Below, piece by piece: positions 20,957-30,850 of a stretch of 64,000 bases of DNA. Origin of the DNA: Bacteroidetes bacterium RIFCSPLOWO2_12_FULL_35_15 (GTDB lineage: Bacteria; Bacteroidota; Bacteroidia; 2-12-FULL-35-15). The notes beneath the pieces are model-generated. The model saw nothing but the letters and a program-made list of their open reading frames with translations. It did not search any database and was not told the origin of the DNA. The position numbers and the translations under genes were made by a program. The stretch spans positions 124,001 through 188,000 of the forward strand of contig MEPB01000019.1 of assembly GCA_001769385.1 (NCBI GenBank), in the 5' to 3' direction. Positions within the stretch are counted from its first letter, which is position 1; each line of letters starts with the position of its first letter.

Positions 20957-22777
20957 TTATTTGTGTACGGCAGCCATTTCTGGAATAACAAGATTTTTTA
21001 AGGCAAGTTCTATATTGGTAAGTTCTTCTTTCATTGCAGAGATTTTACGCTCTGTTTCTAATTTTATGGAGGGGATCAGATTCTTGTAGTAGTCAATTCC
21101 TTCCAGTAAATTAGATTTAAAGTTCTGTAAATAGCGTGATTGTTTTTCTGAAAATGTATCAAAGCTTTTCTCAATTTCTTTCTTTAAATATTCAGCATAT
21201 AATACCAATTCATTTACAAACATATAAGGTCGCGGAACAGAATTAAGAATATTTGTTCGCCCGTATATATGTTCTACCATTTCGCGAAGTGAATGAATGC
21301 CTGAAAAATAAGCAAGGTTTGGTCCGGGACATATACTTGTAGCTGTAAGATTATGGGGAACCGGAATGTTGTTTTTTACTAATACCGGTGCCGCTAATCC
21401 TTCGCACAAACAATCTTTTACAACAATAGCATCAAATTCTTTCTGATACTCTGCAGGCGAAAGATTTTTTTCTTTTAACTGTTTTATTTTTAAATGCTGG
21501 TATTCGCGGGATGAGCCACAAATCGGTTTATTACTGAATTCAGTATTAAATGCCAAAAAAGTTTTATAACAGGCACTACCGGGTCTTCCTTTTTCAATTC
21601 TTTCAATACGTTGTTTTTCGGCTGAACTTTTTCTGAAATTATTAAACGGAATTCCAAGCGGTGAAGCGTAGCTTAAATAATAATCTTCTTTTTTTGCAAC
21701 AGACAATTGGTTTAATGTTTCATTATCTACATTGGTTACTTCAGGAACAAGTAAAAACGGACTTCCCCAACCGGTCCCATCCACCTCATAATATTCCATC
21801 AGAAATTTGTTTTCATTGGCAGTACCAATTCCTCCCTGCACAGTGATCTTCAGTTTTGGTAATTGAACAAAGGATTCATGACCTTTAACAATAAGTGCAT
21901 TGTTGCACATGCTAAAAAGTTCCTCAACAATTTCCGGTTTTTTATTCTTGAATTCTTCTAATATTGGTCCAAGTAAAATACCGTCAGTAGCAAATGCATG
22001 TCCTCCGCAATTTAAGCCCGATTCAACTCTGAATTCAGAGATCCAAAGTCCTTTTTTTGCGAAGAATTTTCCTTGTATTAAAGCAGAACGATAATCGCTA
22101 ACTTTTAGGATGATTTTCTTTTTCAAGTTTCCGTTTTCGTCCGGAAAAAAATCTTTGAATGATTCGCAATAGGTGTAAAGTCGTGGATTTAATCCGGCAG
22201 AAAAAACAACTGAAGACGATAGGTCACTTAAGGCAAAGCCTCTTAGAGCAGCCATTGCATCAGCATATTCTACCGGTAAAAGCGTACCGTCTTTGGCGAA
22301 ATTCATCCGGTCGCATTTGGTCATGATGTTAACATCTATGGAGCCTGCAACTATTTTTTCACGTAATTTTTGTTGTACTAATTCTTTTGCAGCGCCTTCT
22401 TCCATTTTTGTCATCTCCAAATACAACAACTTTAACGAAGAATCGTCTGGCAGCATTTCAAAATATTTTACAATCTCATTTCCTTCTACAAATGCCTCAG
22501 CTTTTAATCTTTTGGTTTGTTTTGCAACAATCTTATTTAAAAGATTCAGATAAGCTGTAATTCGTTTTGCACGATGGTCAATGTCCTCATGAGGAATTGC
22601 AATGTACTCTTCTTCCTCTTGTTCACAATAGAATTTACGCATTTGCTCTACAAGAATGTCTTCAATAATTGAAACAACTGAGGAAATTCCGAAACGAGCA
22701 ACTTTTAATGGGGTGTCAATTGTATATGCCAGGCCCATTACAGGAATGTGAAATGTATGATGTTCTGATTTTGTCAT
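20957..22777 (-). CDS. Uncharacterised 606-aa protein, possibly a divergent FMN-type TIM barrel with a Cys-rich C-terminal part
   Basis: Long ORF with good coding character; ITVQGGIGTANENKFLMEYYEVDGTGWGSPF resembles late beta-strands of FMN TIM-barrels; KPICGSS, KDCLCEGL, TSICPGP cysteines. Confidence 0.6.
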   Translation of the reverse strand: MTKSEHHTFHIPVMGLAYTIDTPLKVARFGISSVVSIIEDILVEQMRKFYCEQEEEEYIAIPHEDIDHRAKRITAYLNLLNKIVAKQTKRLKAEAFVEGNEIVKYFEMLPDDSSLKLLYLEMTKMEEGAAKELVQQKLREKIVAGSIDVNIMTKCDRMNFAKDGTLLPVEYADAMAALRGFALSDLSSSVVFSAGLNPRLYTYCESFKDFFPDENGNLKKKIILKVSDYRSALIQGKFFAKKGLWISEFRVESGLNCGGHAFATDGILLGPILEEFKNKKPEIVEELFSMCNNALIVKGHESFVQLPKLKITVQGGIGTANENKFLMEYYEVDGTGWGSPFLLVPEVTNVDNETLNQLSVAKKEDYYLSYASPLGIPFNNFRKSSAEKQRIERIEKGRPGSACYKTFLAFNTEFSNKPICGSSREYQHLKIKQLKEKNLSPAEYQKEFDAIVVKDCLCEGLAAPVLVKNNIPVPHNLTATSICPGPNLAYFSGIHSLREMVEHIYGRTNILNSVPRPYMFVNELVLYAEYLKKEIEKSFDTFSEKQSRYLQNFKSNLLEGIDYYKNLIPSIKLETERKISAMKEELTNIELALKNLVIPEMAAVHK

Positions 22778-22981: not shown

Positions 22982-23374
22982 ATGAACTATCATTTCTCTA
23001 AAATCTTGAATTCTGATTTTGATACTGCTATTGCAAAAATTACTGATGAATTAAAGAAAGAAGGCTTTGGAATAGTTACAGATATTGATATGAAGGAAAC
23101 ATTAAAGAAAAAAATTGATGTTGATTTCAGGAAATATAGAATACTTGGGGCCTGTAACCCAAAATATGCTTATCAGGCACTTTTGCTTGAAGATAAAGTT
23201 GGAACGATGTTACCATGTAATGTGGTGGTCCAGGAACTTACGGATGGTCGTATTGAAGTTAGTGCAGTTGATCCTTTAGCTTCCATGATTGCAATTGAAA
23301 ATGAGAAACTTATCCCATTGGCAAAGGAAATTAGAGAAAAATTACAAAGAGTAATTGAAAATTTTAGAAATTAA
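22982..23374 (+). CDS. DUF302 domain-containing protein
   Basis: GFGIVTDIDMKETLKKKIDVDFRKYRILGACNPKYAYQALLLEDKVGTMLPCNVVVQE is a classic DUF302 pattern. Confidence 0.85.
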   Translation: MNYHFSKILNSDFDTAIAKITDELKKEGFGIVTDIDMKETLKKKIDVDFRKYRILGACNPKYAYQALLLEDKVGTMLPCNVVVQELTDGRIEVSAVDPLASMIAIENEKLIPLAKEIREKLQRVIENFRN

Positions 23375-23401: not shown

Positions 23402-26215
23402 ATGAAACAAATTAAATTAAAAATAAACGGCAAACAATACGATCTTTTGGTGAATAACCATGAGATGCTTTCGAGTGTGATTCGCGAAAAAGCTGGTTTG
23501 ACCGGAACAAAAGTTGGATGTGAACAAGGAAGTTGTGGTGCATGTACAGTATTGGTAAATAGAGAACCTGTATTGAGTTGCATTACTCCGGCTTTGCGTT
23601 TTGACAATGCAGAGATTACCACTATAGAAGGTGTTACTAAAGGTGGAGCGTTACACAAATTACAGGAAAAATTTGTTGAAAAAGGAGCCATTCAATGTGG
23701 ATTTTGTACTCCCGGTATGGTAATGACTTCGTTAAGCCTTATCCCTGCGCTTAATAAAAAAGAGGGTGCAGAGTCAATGATACATCAAATTAAAGATGGT
23801 TTGTCAGGAAATTTATGCAGATGCACCGGCTATAAAAAAATTATTGAAGCTGTTGCTGAATATGCTTTGGAATCATCTGATCTGATTTCAAAAAAAGATG
23901 AAAAAAAATCGAACCCTATTTCTGGTGCAGTCGGAGTCGGCAGACCATATATAGAGGCAGAAAAAAAAGTAAAGGGTACAGCAGATTATGCAGATGATAT
24001 TCAAACGAAAAATGCTTTGCATTGTAAGTTTTTACGTAGTATATATCCGCATGCAAAAATTGAAAGCATAGATACTTCCGAAGCAATGAAGTTGGATGGA
24101 GTGCATTACATTGCAACAGGAAAAGAATTACCGGTAAAATTTGGTGTGCTTCCAATTTCTCAGGATGAAACTGCAATTGCAATTGATAAGGTGCGTTACA
24201 TTGGTGAAATTGTTGCTGCTGTTGCTGCTGATAACGAAGAGATTGCGGCCTCAGCATGTAAGCTCATCAAAGTCAGCTATAAACGCATCAAAGAATTTTT
24301 ACAGATTGAAGATTCATTGAATGATGTTGGTGAAAATGAAAAAATTCATGAGTATGGAAAGTTCAATAATAACATTCATAAAAAAGCAGAACTGCGTTTT
24401 GGTGACCAACAGCAAGGATTGAAAGATGCGGATGTTACAACAAAAATGTCGTTTGAGTTCGAAGGCATCAATCATGGATTTACTGAACCACATGCGGCAA
24501 CAGCTTTTTGGGATGAAAACGGTTTAACAATTACTACTGCAACACAAGTTCCTCATTATTTGCATCGTGCACTGGCTAAAGTTATGGAAGTTCCATTGAG
24601 TCGTGTTCGTGTAATAAAACCCTATGTTGGCGGTGGTTTTGGCGGCAAGAGCGATCCTTTCCCACATGAAATGATTATTTCGCACATTGCACGTAAAACC
24701 GGCAGACCTGTTCGTGTTCGATTGTCACGCGAAGAAGTTTTTCTGACAAATCATGGAAGACATCCTTCGAAAATGACTGTAGAAATGGGCATTTCAAATG
24801 ATGGGTTCATGCAAGTGTTGGATGCTGATGTTGCTATCGATGGTGGTGCTTACGGAAGTTTTGGTGTGGTTACATCCTATTACAATGGGGTACTATTACA
24901 AGCACCTTATAAATTAGATAATTTCGGATTTCGCACGTATCGTGTTTACACAAATAAACCGCAATGTGGTGCCATGCGTGGGCACGGAGCCGTTAATTCC
25001 CGTTTTGCCGTGGAGTCGATCATTGATGATCTGGCACATAAAATTAAAATGGATCCCTGCGAATTAAGGATGAAAAATTTCCTTGATTCCAATACATTGA
25101 CTGTTGGGCATTATCGCATTACTTCAAATGGAAGTCGTGAATCATTGCAAAAAGTAATGGATCAATCCGAATGGAAAAAACGCATCGGAAAATTAAAAAC
25201 AGGAAGTGGACTTGGCGTTGGTTGTGGCTTTTTTATCAGCGGAAGCGCACTGCCAATTCACTGGAATGAATTACCACAATCTGTTGTTCATTTAAAACTT
25301 GATTTTGACGGACGGGTGTTGATCACATCGGGTGCAAGTGATATCGGACAAGGCAGTGATACGATGCTTGCAATAATTGTTTCAGAAGTATTAGGCCTTG
25401 GAATGGATAAATTAGTTGTGCTTGGCGCAGATACATTATTAACTCCTGTTGATTTTGGAAGTTATTCAAGTCGTGTAACATTTATGGCTGGTAATGCGGC
25501 AAAAGATGCAGCTGAAAATCTTAAAAAAGAAATCATAGCATCAATCGTAAAACAAAAGGACGTTGCAGCAGAAGAACTTAATTTTTCTGATAGCCGCGTA
25601 GTTAGTAATGATAAAAAAGTGGATCTGTCCTGGATGGAAGTGGTTGATATTTTAACCGCAAATCGGGGAGCTGTTTCTGTTAGTGGAAAATATATTTCTC
25701 CCAAATTAGGAGGTGATTTCAAAGGTGCCGGAGCAGGATTAAGTCCTTCTTATACATTCGGTGCCTGTGTAGCTGAGGTGAATGTAGATACTGAAACCGG
25801 TCATGTAAAAGTATTGAATGTTTGGGGAGCACATGATTGTGGAAAAGCAATTAATCCCCTTGCAGTGGAAGGGCAGCTGGAAGGTTCTTGGCATATGGGA
25901 ATAGGACAGGCAATGAGCGAACAAATGAAATATTATAATGGATTATTAGTGAATAATAATTTCCTTGATTATAAAATTCCAACTTCGTTAGATACTCCCG
26001 ATATCCATGCAAACATTATTGAAACGAATGATCCGGAAGGTCCATTTGGAGCTAAAGAAGCAGGTGAAGGTGCAATACATCCTGTGATTCCGGCTATTGC
26101 AAATGCAGTATTCAATGCCGTAGGAGTACGTATCACCAAATTGCCGATAAGTGCAGAAGATGTATTGAAACAAATGAAAGAGAATAAACTATTTAAAGAA
26201 AAAAGTATCGCATAA
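23402..26215 (+). CDS. Xanthine dehydrogenase family molybdopterin-binding protein with fused N-terminal [2Fe-2S] subunit
   Basis: N-terminal GCEQGSCGACTVLV and QCGFCTPGMV...GNLCRCTGY; Mo subunit GGGFGGKSDPFPHE, GAMRGHGAVNSRFA, GAKEAGEGA (catalytic Glu). Confidence 0.9.
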   Translation: MKQIKLKINGKQYDLLVNNHEMLSSVIREKAGLTGTKVGCEQGSCGACTVLVNREPVLSCITPALRFDNAEITTIEGVTKGGALHKLQEKFVEKGAIQCGFCTPGMVMTSLSLIPALNKKEGAESMIHQIKDGLSGNLCRCTGYKKIIEAVAEYALESSDLISKKDEKKSNPISGAVGVGRPYIEAEKKVKGTADYADDIQTKNALHCKFLRSIYPHAKIESIDTSEAMKLDGVHYIATGKELPVKFGVLPISQDETAIAIDKVRYIGEIVAAVAADNEEIAASACKLIKVSYKRIKEFLQIEDSLNDVGENEKIHEYGKFNNNIHKKAELRFGDQQQGLKDADVTTKMSFEFEGINHGFTEPHAATAFWDENGLTITTATQVPHYLHRALAKVMEVPLSRVRVIKPYVGGGFGGKSDPFPHEMIISHIARKTGRPVRVRLSREEVFLTNHGRHPSKMTVEMGISNDGFMQVLDADVAIDGGAYGSFGVVTSYYNGVLLQAPYKLDNFGFRTYRVYTNKPQCGAMRGHGAVNSRFAVESIIDDLAHKIKMDPCELRMKNFLDSNTLTVGHYRITSNGSRESLQKVMDQSEWKKRIGKLKTGSGLGVGCGFFISGSALPIHWNELPQSVVHLKLDFDGRVLITSGASDIGQGSDTMLAIIVSEVLGLGMDKLVVLGADTLLTPVDFGSYSSRVTFMAGNAAKDAAENLKKEIIASIVKQKDVAAEELNFSDSRVVSNDKKVDLSWMEVVDILTANRGAVSVSGKYISPKLGGDFKGAGAGLSPSYTFGACVAEVNVDTETGHVKVLNVWGAHDCGKAINPLAVEGQLEGSWHMGIGQAMSEQMKYYNGLLVNNNFLDYKIPTSLDTPDIHANIIETNDPEGPFGAKEAGEGAIHPVIPAIANAVFNAVGVRITKLPISAEDVLKQMKENKLFKEKSIA

Positions 26216-27145
26216 ATGATAATAGAAAAATTATATCTCAAAGCGAAAACGATTGAACAAGCTATTTATGAGGCCAATGAGCATGTAGATAGTTTTAGAT
26301 ATATCGCTGGAGGAACAGATGTATTAGTAAACAAATTTCAAGGGAATGAAGAATCAAGTTATCTGATAGACATCTCAGGAATTGAGGAATTGAAAAATAC
26401 TTTTCTTATCGGAAACTCCCTTGCTATTGGAGCATTGGTTCGTCTGGATGATTTGAAAAAAAACAAGCACATCCTTCAGCATTTTCCTGTTTTGCTTGAA
26501 GCAGCTCATTCTGTTGCTTCTCCAATGATTCGTAAAACAGCAACACTTGGAGGGAATTTGCTTTGTGAGAACCGTTGTTCTTTTTATAATCAAAGTGAAT
26601 GGTGGAGAGAAGCTGTTGGTTATTGTTTAAAATGTGATGGCGAGATTTGCATTGCAACAGGTGGAAAGAAAAATTGTTTTTCGAAATTTGTTTCAGATAC
26701 TGCTGTTGCTTTGATAAGTATGAATGCAAGTATTGAAGTGATAGAAAATAGTTCACCATCCATTGTTCCCCTCGAAAGTATTTATACCGGGGATGGTGTA
26801 AATCCACGCAAGTTCAATAAAACAGCAATCATTAAATCCATTCATATTCCTATCAATGAAGGATTCAAATCTGTTTACAAAAAATTACGTCAGCGCGAAA
26901 GTTTAGAATTCAGTTCCCTTACAACTGCTGTAACATTAAATAAAGCTGGGAAAATAAAAATTGTTTTAGGTGGTGTTGATCCTAAACCTGTTGTTGTTGA
27001 AGGAACAACGAAAGATGATAAAAATGAACTAATTAAGCAAGCTGTAAAAATGGCTCGTATTGTCGATAATGATGTGTATTCAAGAGAATACAGAAAAGAA
27101 ATGATCAGCGTGTATTTAAATAGAAGTTTTGAAGAATTAAACTGA
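26216..27145 (+). CDS. FAD-binding subunit of a molybdenum hydroxylase, with a cysteine loop like 4-hydroxybenzoyl-CoA reductase beta subunit
   Basis: YIAGGTDVLVNKFQG and TLGGNLL FAD motifs; insert RCSFYNQSEWWREAVGYCLKCDGEICIATGGKKNC. Confidence 0.87.
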   Translation: MIIEKLYLKAKTIEQAIYEANEHVDSFRYIAGGTDVLVNKFQGNEESSYLIDISGIEELKNTFLIGNSLAIGALVRLDDLKKNKHILQHFPVLLEAAHSVASPMIRKTATLGGNLLCENRCSFYNQSEWWREAVGYCLKCDGEICIATGGKKNCFSKFVSDTAVALISMNASIEVIENSSPSIVPLESIYTGDGVNPRKFNKTAIIKSIHIPINEGFKSVYKKLRQRESLEFSSLTTAVTLNKAGKIKIVLGGVDPKPVVVEGTTKDDKNELIKQAVKMARIVDNDVYSREYRKEMISVYLNRSFEELN

Positions 27146-27322: not shown

Positions 27323-30300
27323 ATGAAGAATAAAACAAAGATTATGGATGGCAATGAAGCTGCGGCTTACATTGCTTACAAGACAAGCGAAGTATGTGCG
27401 ATCTATCCTATTACACCCTCTTCAACCATGGGCGAATTCTGTGATGAATGGTCAGCCGATGGACAGAAAAATGTTTTTGGTGAAATACCACGGATAATGG
27501 AAATGCAAAGTGAAGCGGGTGCTGCAGGTGCTATTCATGGTGCATTACAAGGCGGGGCATTGGCATCAACTTTTACATGTTCGCAAGGGTTATTATTGAT
27601 GATCCCCAATATGTATAAAATTGCCGGAGAGCTAACGCCTACTGTTTTTCATATTGCTGCTCGTACATTAGCAACTCATGCTCTTTCTATTTTTGGTGAT
27701 CATTCCGATGTGATGTCGGTTCGTCAAACAGGCTGGGGGATGCTCTTTGGGCGTAATGCACAGGAAGCTATGGATATGGCAATGATCGCGCAAGCAGCAA
27801 CACTCCGTTCAAAAGTTCCTTTCCTCAATATTTTCGATGGCTTTCGAACTTCACATGAATTGATGAAAGTAGAGGTGATACCTGATGAAGTGATCTTAAA
27901 AATGATTGATGAAGGTGATCTGCTTACCTTGCGTAGTCGAGCCATGTCAACAGAAAAGCCATCTATCAGAGGAACAGCTCAAAATCCGGATGTGTTTTTT
28001 CAAGGCCGTGAAGCATCAAATAAATATTATTTGAATGTTCCGATTGCTGTAAATGATGCAATGAAACGGTTCGCAGAACTAACAGGAAGAGCTTATAAAC
28101 TCTATGAATACTTCGGGCATGAAAATCCAGATCGCATTATTGTTATAATGGGATCCGGAGCAAATACGGTTCATGAAATGATTGACGATATGAACACAAA
28201 AGGAGAAAAAGTGGGTTATATTTATGTTCGATTATATCGTCCGCTTGATGCCAAAGCATTTGTAAATGCAATTCCAAAATCAGTAAAAAAAATCGCTGTA
28301 CTTGATCGTTGTAAAGAACCGGGAAGTGTTGGCGAACCACTTTATCAGGATGTTGTTTCGGCAATTGCTGAAGAATGGACCGGTGAGAAATTGAAAATCA
28401 TTGGTGGCCGTTATGGTCTTGCTTCCAAAGAATTTACCCCTGCAATGGTAAAAGCTGTTTTTGATGAATTGAATGTGGTGGTTTCAAAAAAACATTTTAC
28501 AGTTGGTATCGAGGATGATATCACACATTTAAGTTTGGATTATGACAAAAAATTCTCATTGGAAAAGCAGCATTTGTTCCGGGGGTTATTTTTTGGATTA
28601 GGAGCAGATGGAACCGTAAGTGCCAACAAAAATTCAATCAAAATTATTGGTGATACAACTGATTATTATGTGCAAGGATACTTTGTTTACGATTCAAAAA
28701 AATCGGGTTCACTTACAGTGTCACATTTGCGTTTCGGAAAAAAACCTATTCTCTCTACCTATTTAGTAAGTTCAGCAAATTTTATTGCATGTCATCAATT
28801 TAATTTCATAAATAAATATGATATTCTAAAGACTGCAGAACAAGGAGCTACATTCTTATTAAATACTCCATTTGAAAAAGAAGAAGTTTGGAAAAAACTT
28901 CCCAAAAAAATTCAGGAAGAAATCATTAATAAAAAAATTAATTTTTATGTTATTGATGCTTCCAAAGTTGCACGTGAAGCAGGAATGGGCTCAAGAGTAA
29001 ATACTATTTTACAAACTTGTTTTTTCGCAATTGCAGGCATACTTACAAAAGAAGAAGCCATCAAACGAATCAAAGATGCTATTCAAAAAACATATTCTGA
29101 TAAAGGCGAAAAAGTAGTCTTGAAAAATTTTGAAGCCGTTGATAAAGCAATTGAAAATCTTCACCAGATTGATTACTCAAAATATAAAACAGGAATCATT
29201 GAAAGTGAAAAAATGGTTGCAGATAATGCACCTGCATTTGTTAAAAATGTGTTAGCGAAAATTATGTCTTTCGAAGGCGATGAATTACCTGTGAGTGCTT
29301 TTCCGATTGATGGTACCTATCCGGTAGCAACAACCCAATGGGAAAAAAGAAACATTGCTGATAAAGTTCCTTCCTGGGATGCTGAATTATGTTCTCAATG
29401 CGGAAAATGTTTCTTGATTTGTCCGCATGCTGCGATACGATGTAAAGTGTATGAAAAAGATAAATTATCAAAAGCTCCTGGAGATTTCAAACATATTGCG
29501 CCAATCGGAAAAGAATTTGTGAAAGAGAACGAAGCATATACATTACAGGTTGCTGTTGAAGATTGTACAGGTTGCAATTTATGTGTTGAATATTGTCCGA
29601 TTGAAAGCAAAACAGAGCCCGGGCATAAAGCAATCAATATGGTTGCTCAACTTCCAATTAAAGAAAAGGAAATAGAGAATTGGAATTTCTTTTTATCACT
29701 TCCTGAAATTGATCGTTCCCGTGTGAATAAAAATACAGTGAAAGGAACACAATTATTGCAACCATTGTTTGAATTCTCCGGAGCATGTTCCGGTTGTGGC
29801 GAAACACCCTATGTAAAATTATTATCACAATTATATGGCGATAAAATGGTGGTTGCTAATGCAACCGGATGCTCTTCCATTTATGGCGGTAATTTGCCAA
29901 GTACTCCATGGGCTACAAATAACGAGGGTTGTGGGCCGGCTTGGGCAAATTCATTGTTTGAGGATAATGCAGAATTCGGACTCGGAATAAAAATGGCGTA
30001 TGATAAAAAAGCGGATATTGCAAAAACACTTTTAAATAGCATCCGCGATATTATTGGTGAAAGTTTTGTTGAGGAAATTTTAAATGCTGACCAAACTACA
30101 GAAGACGGAATACGTAAACAACGTGAAAAAATAAAAGTCATTCGTCAGCGCATCGCTCCATTCAGCAATTTTGCAATGAAACAATTAACACTCCTCGCTG
30201 ACCATTTAGTAAAAAAATCGCATTGGATCATTGGTGGTGATGGATGGGCTTATGATATTGGTTTTGGTGGATTGGATCATGTTCTTTCTACCGGAGAAAA

Positions 30301-30850
30301 TGTAAATATTATTGTACTTGATACCGAGGTTTATTCGAATACCGGAGGACAAAAATCAAAATCAACTCCAATTGGAGCAAGTGCAAAATTCTCTGTGAAC
30401 GGAAAAACAAATGGTAAAAAAGATCTGGCACTTCAGGCCATTGCCCATGGATCTGCTTATGTAGCTCAGATCGCAATGGGTGCGAATGATGCACATACCA
30501 TAAAAACAATTCAGGAAGCGGAAGCATTCCCCGGCACATCGATAATCATTGCTTACAGTCATTGTATCGCTCATGGATATGATATGGTACATGGTGCCGA
30601 ACACCAGGTAAATGCAGTGAAATCAGGCTACTGGCCATTATTCCGTTATAACCCTTTGAAACCTAAAGGTGAACGATTTACGATTGATTGTAAAGAACCA
30701 TCATTACCTTTGAAAGAATTCTTATATAATGAAACCCGTTTTAGTATTTTAACCCGACAAGATCCTGCAAATGCTGCAAAATTGCTGACACTAGCTGAAC
30801 TTGGAATTAGCGATCACTGGGAACGATTAAATGCATTGAAGGCATTGTAA
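27323..30850 (+). CDS. nifJ: Pyruvate:ferredoxin (flavodoxin) oxidoreductase
   Basis: 1175 aa; MDGNEAAAYIAYKTSEVCAIYPITPSS; CSQCGKCFLICP and CTGCNLCVEYCP; TPP region GDGWAYDIGFGGLDHV. Confidence 0.95.
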   Translation: MKNKTKIMDGNEAAAYIAYKTSEVCAIYPITPSSTMGEFCDEWSADGQKNVFGEIPRIMEMQSEAGAAGAIHGALQGGALASTFTCSQGLLLMIPNMYKIAGELTPTVFHIAARTLATHALSIFGDHSDVMSVRQTGWGMLFGRNAQEAMDMAMIAQAATLRSKVPFLNIFDGFRTSHELMKVEVIPDEVILKMIDEGDLLTLRSRAMSTEKPSIRGTAQNPDVFFQGREASNKYYLNVPIAVNDAMKRFAELTGRAYKLYEYFGHENPDRIIVIMGSGANTVHEMIDDMNTKGEKVGYIYVRLYRPLDAKAFVNAIPKSVKKIAVLDRCKEPGSVGEPLYQDVVSAIAEEWTGEKLKIIGGRYGLASKEFTPAMVKAVFDELNVVVSKKHFTVGIEDDITHLSLDYDKKFSLEKQHLFRGLFFGLGADGTVSANKNSIKIIGDTTDYYVQGYFVYDSKKSGSLTVSHLRFGKKPILSTYLVSSANFIACHQFNFINKYDILKTAEQGATFLLNTPFEKEEVWKKLPKKIQEEIINKKINFYVIDASKVAREAGMGSRVNTILQTCFFAIAGILTKEEAIKRIKDAIQKTYSDKGEKVVLKNFEAVDKAIENLHQIDYSKYKTGIIESEKMVADNAPAFVKNVLAKIMSFEGDELPVSAFPIDGTYPVATTQWEKRNIADKVPSWDAELCSQCGKCFLICPHAAIRCKVYEKDKLSKAPGDFKHIAPIGKEFVKENEAYTLQVAVEDCTGCNLCVEYCPIESKTEPGHKAINMVAQLPIKEKEIENWNFFLSLPEIDRSRVNKNTVKGTQLLQPLFEFSGACSGCGETPYVKLLSQLYGDKMVVANATGCSSIYGGNLPSTPWATNNEGCGPAWANSLFEDNAEFGLGIKMAYDKKADIAKTLLNSIRDIIGESFVEEILNADQTTEDGIRKQREKIKVIRQRIAPFSNFAMKQLTLLADHLVKKSHWIIGGDGWAYDIGFGGLDHVLSTGENVNIIVLDTEVYSNTGGQKSKSTPIGASAKFSVNGKTNGKKDLALQAIAHGSAYVAQIAMGANDAHTIKTIQEAEAFPGTSIIIAYSHCIAHGYDMVHGAEHQVNAVKSGYWPLFRYNPLKPKGERFTIDCKEPSLPLKEFLYNETRFSILTRQDPANAAKLLTLAELGISDHWERLNALKAL

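Follow-up and report, generated by a model that had tools for sequence, protein, structure and literature searches.

Among described members of the xanthine oxidase family, E. coli PaoABC, an aldehyde-oxidizing enzyme, has an inserted cysteine loop in its FAD subunit that holds a [4Fe-4S] cluster. HcrABC, the hydroxybenzoyl-CoA reductase (HCR) of Thauera aromatica (PDB 1rm6/1sb3), has a loop of this kind in HcrB, with C122, C138, C146, and C155 at the structural ligand positions. Urolithin C dehydroxylase (Ucdh) is an HCR-related reductive dehydroxylase of the same family, described with FAD, two 2Fe-2S clusters, and NADH as the donor (PMC12771579), and in these cofactors and this donor it differs from what is predicted for the enzyme considered here.

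The stretch of DNA analysed, referred to below as the window, comprises 64,000 nucleotides from a Bacteroidota genome and carries a two-gene set in which Mo, FAD, and two [2Fe-2S] modules are all present. Judged from the sequences, these genes probably encode a hydroxybenzoyl-CoA reductase of the xanthine oxidase family that has an extra [4Fe-4S] cluster, is fed by ferredoxin, and converts 4-hydroxybenzoyl-CoA to benzoyl-CoA, which would then enter a class I benzoyl-CoA reductase (Bcr) pathway. HcrABC is the closest match for both large subunits. The features concerned are as follows.

22982..23374, + strand: DUF302 protein directly upstream of the Mo-FAD pair; the same neighbour is present in relatives L004, L008, L009, and L066
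23402..26215, + strand: fused HcrC-HcrA-like subunit, 937 aa, with [2Fe-2S] domain at about residues 1-155 and molybdopterin domain at about 172-930
24881..24883, + strand: codon of Tyr494, equivalent of HcrA Tyr326 by alignment; invariant in 72 sequences
26066..26068, + strand: codon of Glu889, catalytic-type, equivalent of HcrA Glu726 by alignment; invariant in 72 sequences
26216..27145, + strand: HcrB-like FAD subunit (FAD_binding_5), 309 aa, from ORF, alignment, family scores, and fold match
26576..26677, + strand: C121-x15-C137-x7-C145-x8-C154 loop, predicted [4Fe-4S] site, from the 1rm6_B alignment and conservation
26633-26635, + strand: codon of C140, clade-specific fifth Cys (CLKC), from conservation
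27323..30850, + strand: NifJ-type pyruvate:ferredoxin oxidoreductase (PFOR), 177 bp downstream of the FAD gene, candidate source of reduced ferredoxin

The original prediction had placed a C-x15-C-x7-C-x8-C loop with an additional Cys (LKC) at 26576-26677 and had likened it to the loop of HcrB. Translation of the ORF agrees with it in spacing, in the additional Cys (C140), and exactly in position, the codon of C121 lying at 26576-26578 and that of C154 at 26675-26677. The likeness to HcrB was put to an alignment with 1rm6_B, set beforehand as the refuting test, in which C121, C137, C145, and C154 fall on HcrB C122, C138, C146, and C155, the FYNQSEWWR sequence around the aligned cysteines is identical, and C140 stands where HcrB has Tyr141. 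When the FAD subunit is searched against the PDB with phmmer, 1rm6_B is the best match (E 3.9e-38); next come PaoB (5g5g_B) and the medium subunit of an aldehyde oxidase (5y6q_B), both of which also have an inserted cysteine loop. With the FAD subunits of CO dehydrogenase, nicotinate dehydrogenase, and similar enzymes, the alignment is lost at the loop. The prediction is to be refined in that subunits of the PaoB type do have an inserted cysteine loop. Since the PaoB cysteines are spaced differently (x9-x8-x18), the HCR-like trait is the spacing together with its surrounding sequence, rather than a cysteine loop as such. The motif is absent from the other two FAD_binding_5 proteins of the same genome. 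(A second xanthine-oxidase-family set in this genome, with 2Fe-2S, Mo, and FAD genes at L118:1530-6411 on contig C6, is loop-less; the gene beside it resembles, by sequence, an indolepyruvate:ferredoxin oxidoreductase subunit.)

The spacing of the loop is not a product of chance, because shuffling the protein 100,000 times reproduces it just twice and because, when the ORFs of 100 aa or longer in the fetched loci (1,940 in total) are scanned, all 89 that have the spacing also carry the Asn-Gln of a FYNQSEWW-type signature. The four cysteines are conserved in every one of 84 distinct loop sequences from relatives, with slight variation of the spacing in four (a last gap of x9 in three and a 7-residue insertion in one). 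The fifth Cys, which forms a C-x2-C pair with C137, is found in 68/68 members of a mainly Bacteroidota clade and in 0/16 proteobacterial HcrB homologues; this invariance is not a selection effect of the pattern scan that gathered the relatives, since the query peptides included FYNQSEWW but not CLKC. With four cysteines at the structural ligand positions of HcrB, by both alignment and conservation, the loop very probably carries an additional [4Fe-4S] cluster, and it very probably serves as the iron-sulfur site in an enzyme for the oxygen-independent removal of a hydroxyl group from aromatic acids.

The partner gene ends in a stop codon that abuts the ATG of the FAD subunit gene. Its product has, for the two [2Fe-2S] modules, eight cysteines at 40, 45, 48, 60, 99, 102, 139, and 141, and its best PDB match is HcrA (E 7e-182). 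It retains the equivalents of the HcrA active-site residues Tyr326 and Glu726, which have catalytic roles; a literature search for papers on the active-site role of Tyr326 gave unrelated monoamine oxidase work. The top NCBIfam models for the two subunits are those of HCR, but both scores lie under the equivalog cut-offs: 209.2 bits against 404.55 for the FAD subunit (TIGR03195, beta) and 834.1 against 994.55 for the fused Mo subunit (TIGR03194, alpha). By these cut-offs the enzyme is outside HCR in the strict sense, though it is predicted to work like HCR. With TIGR03195, the five proteobacterial relatives tested score 411-441, above the cut-off, while the Bacteroidota-clade proteins tested score 209-225, and in a quick tree the Bacteroidota clade stands apart from the proteobacterial group, a separation to be read with caution given the long branches of PaoB and the outgroup. 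On sequence grounds, then, the FAD subunit belongs to a divergent, mainly Bacteroidota clade in which the small subunit is fused and the fifth Cys is invariant; current HCR models miss this clade. The proteobacterial HcrB homologues (L064, L067-L083) share the loop and its four cysteines but not the fifth, and they are 31-34% identical to the window protein; their Mo subunits have 770-847 aa, compared with about 930 aa for the fused subunit in the window clade. The window enzyme differs from HcrABC itself in the same fusion and fifth Cys, as well as in its Bacteroidota host and its scores below the cut-offs.

In the proposed mechanism, the four loop cysteines would hold the extra [4Fe-4S] cluster, which would receive low-potential electrons from reduced ferredoxin, possibly supplied by the adjacent PFOR. 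From there the electrons would pass to FAD, then to the two [2Fe-2S] clusters in the fused subunit, and finally to the Mo centre, the predicted site of reductive dehydroxylation of 4-hydroxybenzoyl-CoA, the predicted substrate, to benzoyl-CoA. A PFOR gene is near the HCR-like operon in 9 relatives. Ahead of the Mo-FAD pair, relatives often have genes for a MobA-like nucleotidyltransferase, an XdhC maturation factor, and an SDR, and the pair is often beside BcrB and BcrC. (In the window, a 606-aa protein at 20957-22777 on the - strand, divergent from the DUF302-Mo-FAD genes, has no Pfam match at 1e-6.)

Benzoyl-CoA formed by the window enzyme most likely enters a pathway that starts with a class I benzoyl-CoA reductase. 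This ATP-dependent pathway (Bcr, Dch, Had, Oah) would be encoded elsewhere in the genome: contig C60 (loci L116 and L117) contains BcrC, B, A, and D, Had, Oah, an ADP-forming acyl-CoA synthetase, and the MobA-like/XdhC/SDR trio, with a Dch candidate near the Bcr cluster. BcrB, BcrC, BcrD, Had, and Oah score above their curated cut-offs, and the BcrA and Dch candidates below theirs. The location of the Mo-FAD pair on a different contig from these genes counts against the proposed reading; in its favour, the BcrC gene is divergent from the trio that directly precedes the Mo-FAD genes in relatives. A dedicated 4-hydroxybenzoate-CoA ligase was not identified, which also counts against it; within the Bcr cluster, an ADP-forming acyl-CoA synthetase takes the place of an obvious AMP-forming aromatic CoA ligase.

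Across 395 genomes of the same class as the window genome, an HCR-like FAD subunit is encoded in 47 and BcrB in 51. All 47 carriers have BcrB, which is absent from 344 of the 348 non-carriers (Fisher 1e-56, a value that overstates independence, as the genomes are related), and in 25/47 carriers the two genes lie 7-25 kb apart on one contig. This link is not a by-product of having any xanthine-oxidase-family enzyme: 104 genomes have some FAD_binding_5 protein (PF00941), and of the 57 without an HCR-like one, just 2 have BcrB. Within the genus of the window genome, BcrB is present in 7/8 carriers vs 2/17 non-carriers (p = 0.0005, again among related genomes). The shared ancestry of the genomes makes the exact p-values less reliable but leaves intact the pattern itself, which spans 30 genera.

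Because both large subunits score under the equivalog cut-offs, the substrate could differ from that of HCR. A reductase of the HCR type, its cofactor chain unchanged, might act on something else in the pathway, for instance the CoA ester of a different hydroxylated aromatic or alicyclic compound. Along with the scores, this would accord with R389, D480, and Y493 of the Mo subunit in the window clade, where proteobacterial relatives have L/K, R, and L, and with the position of some relatives (L012, L021, L024, L026, L047) amid acyl-CoA dehydrogenase, 3HCDH, and thiolase genes. Such a substrate is nevertheless unlikely given the tight link to benzoyl-CoA reductase and the invariance of the HcrA-type Tyr and Glu. 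Far less probable still is an oxidative enzyme, acting on an aldehyde or a purine, whose loop merely looks like that of HcrB. While PaoB and 5y6q_B are the next PDB matches and have cysteine loops of their own, the co-occurrence with BcrB and the different PaoB spacing speak against such an enzyme, as does the Mo subunit, whose score with the HCR alpha model far exceeds the 298.7 bits that it attains with the PaoC model (NF041671, cut-off 1180). A xanthine dehydrogenase is rejected on spacing and context and on scores of 566 against a cut-off of 780 (XdhA) and 119 against 310 (XdhB). Family scores and context thus go most of the way towards refuting an oxidative role.

The loop itself might also have descended from that of HcrB without keeping a [4Fe-4S] cluster, or might use another ligand set (e.g. 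C137/C140/C145/C154) owing to the fifth Cys. The invariance of C140 and its pairing with C137 would suit a change of ligands, but C121 is invariant too, as in HcrB, and a loop of this sort is improbable. The AlphaFold model of the FAD subunit (pTM 0.86) has HcrB (1rm6_B) as its top Foldseek/PDB fold match and leaves the loop undefined, with pLDDT <50 at residues 125-153; since pLDDT is likewise <50 across the loop of a bona fide control, a proteobacterial HcrB homologue, the model argues neither for nor against a cluster. It is conceivable, though doubtful, that the enzymes of Bacteroidota constitute a class of hydroxybenzoyl-CoA reductases in their own right, marked by the [2Fe-2S]-Mo fusion and by a fifth Cys that alters the ligation or redox potential of the cluster, and perhaps using another substrate or donor. 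The invariant fifth Cys offers a clean, testable handle on the ligation and tuning of the extra cluster of HCR.

These results suggest that a sizeable share of the sampled genomes in this class of Bacteroidota (47 of 395) may be capable of oxygen-independent dehydroxylation and dearomatisation of aromatic acids, a capacity mostly associated with Proteobacteria. The relatives fetched almost all bear a metagenome-assembled label, so culture work would have missed this capacity. A search of a limited collection of papers found no study devoted to HCR or benzoyl-CoA reductase in Bacteroidota; some account of it in the phylum or close to it may already exist, however, since one MAG from a culture that degrades benzene (apparently Ignavibacteriaceae MAG 20) is reported to express enzymes of anaerobic benzoyl-CoA degradation (PMC8099898).

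Two further genes recur around the operon in relatives. A gene of the tryptophanase/tyrosine phenol-lyase family is near it at L061:11002-12408 and also in L008 and L010, making a route from tyrosine to phenol conceivable. The Mo-FAD pair commonly has a gene for a hemerythrin-like protein behind it (L015:9934-10464 and 28 other loci); this protein possibly serves in oxygen protection, and in the window genome the only homologue found is weak (29% identity) and is encoded on another contig.
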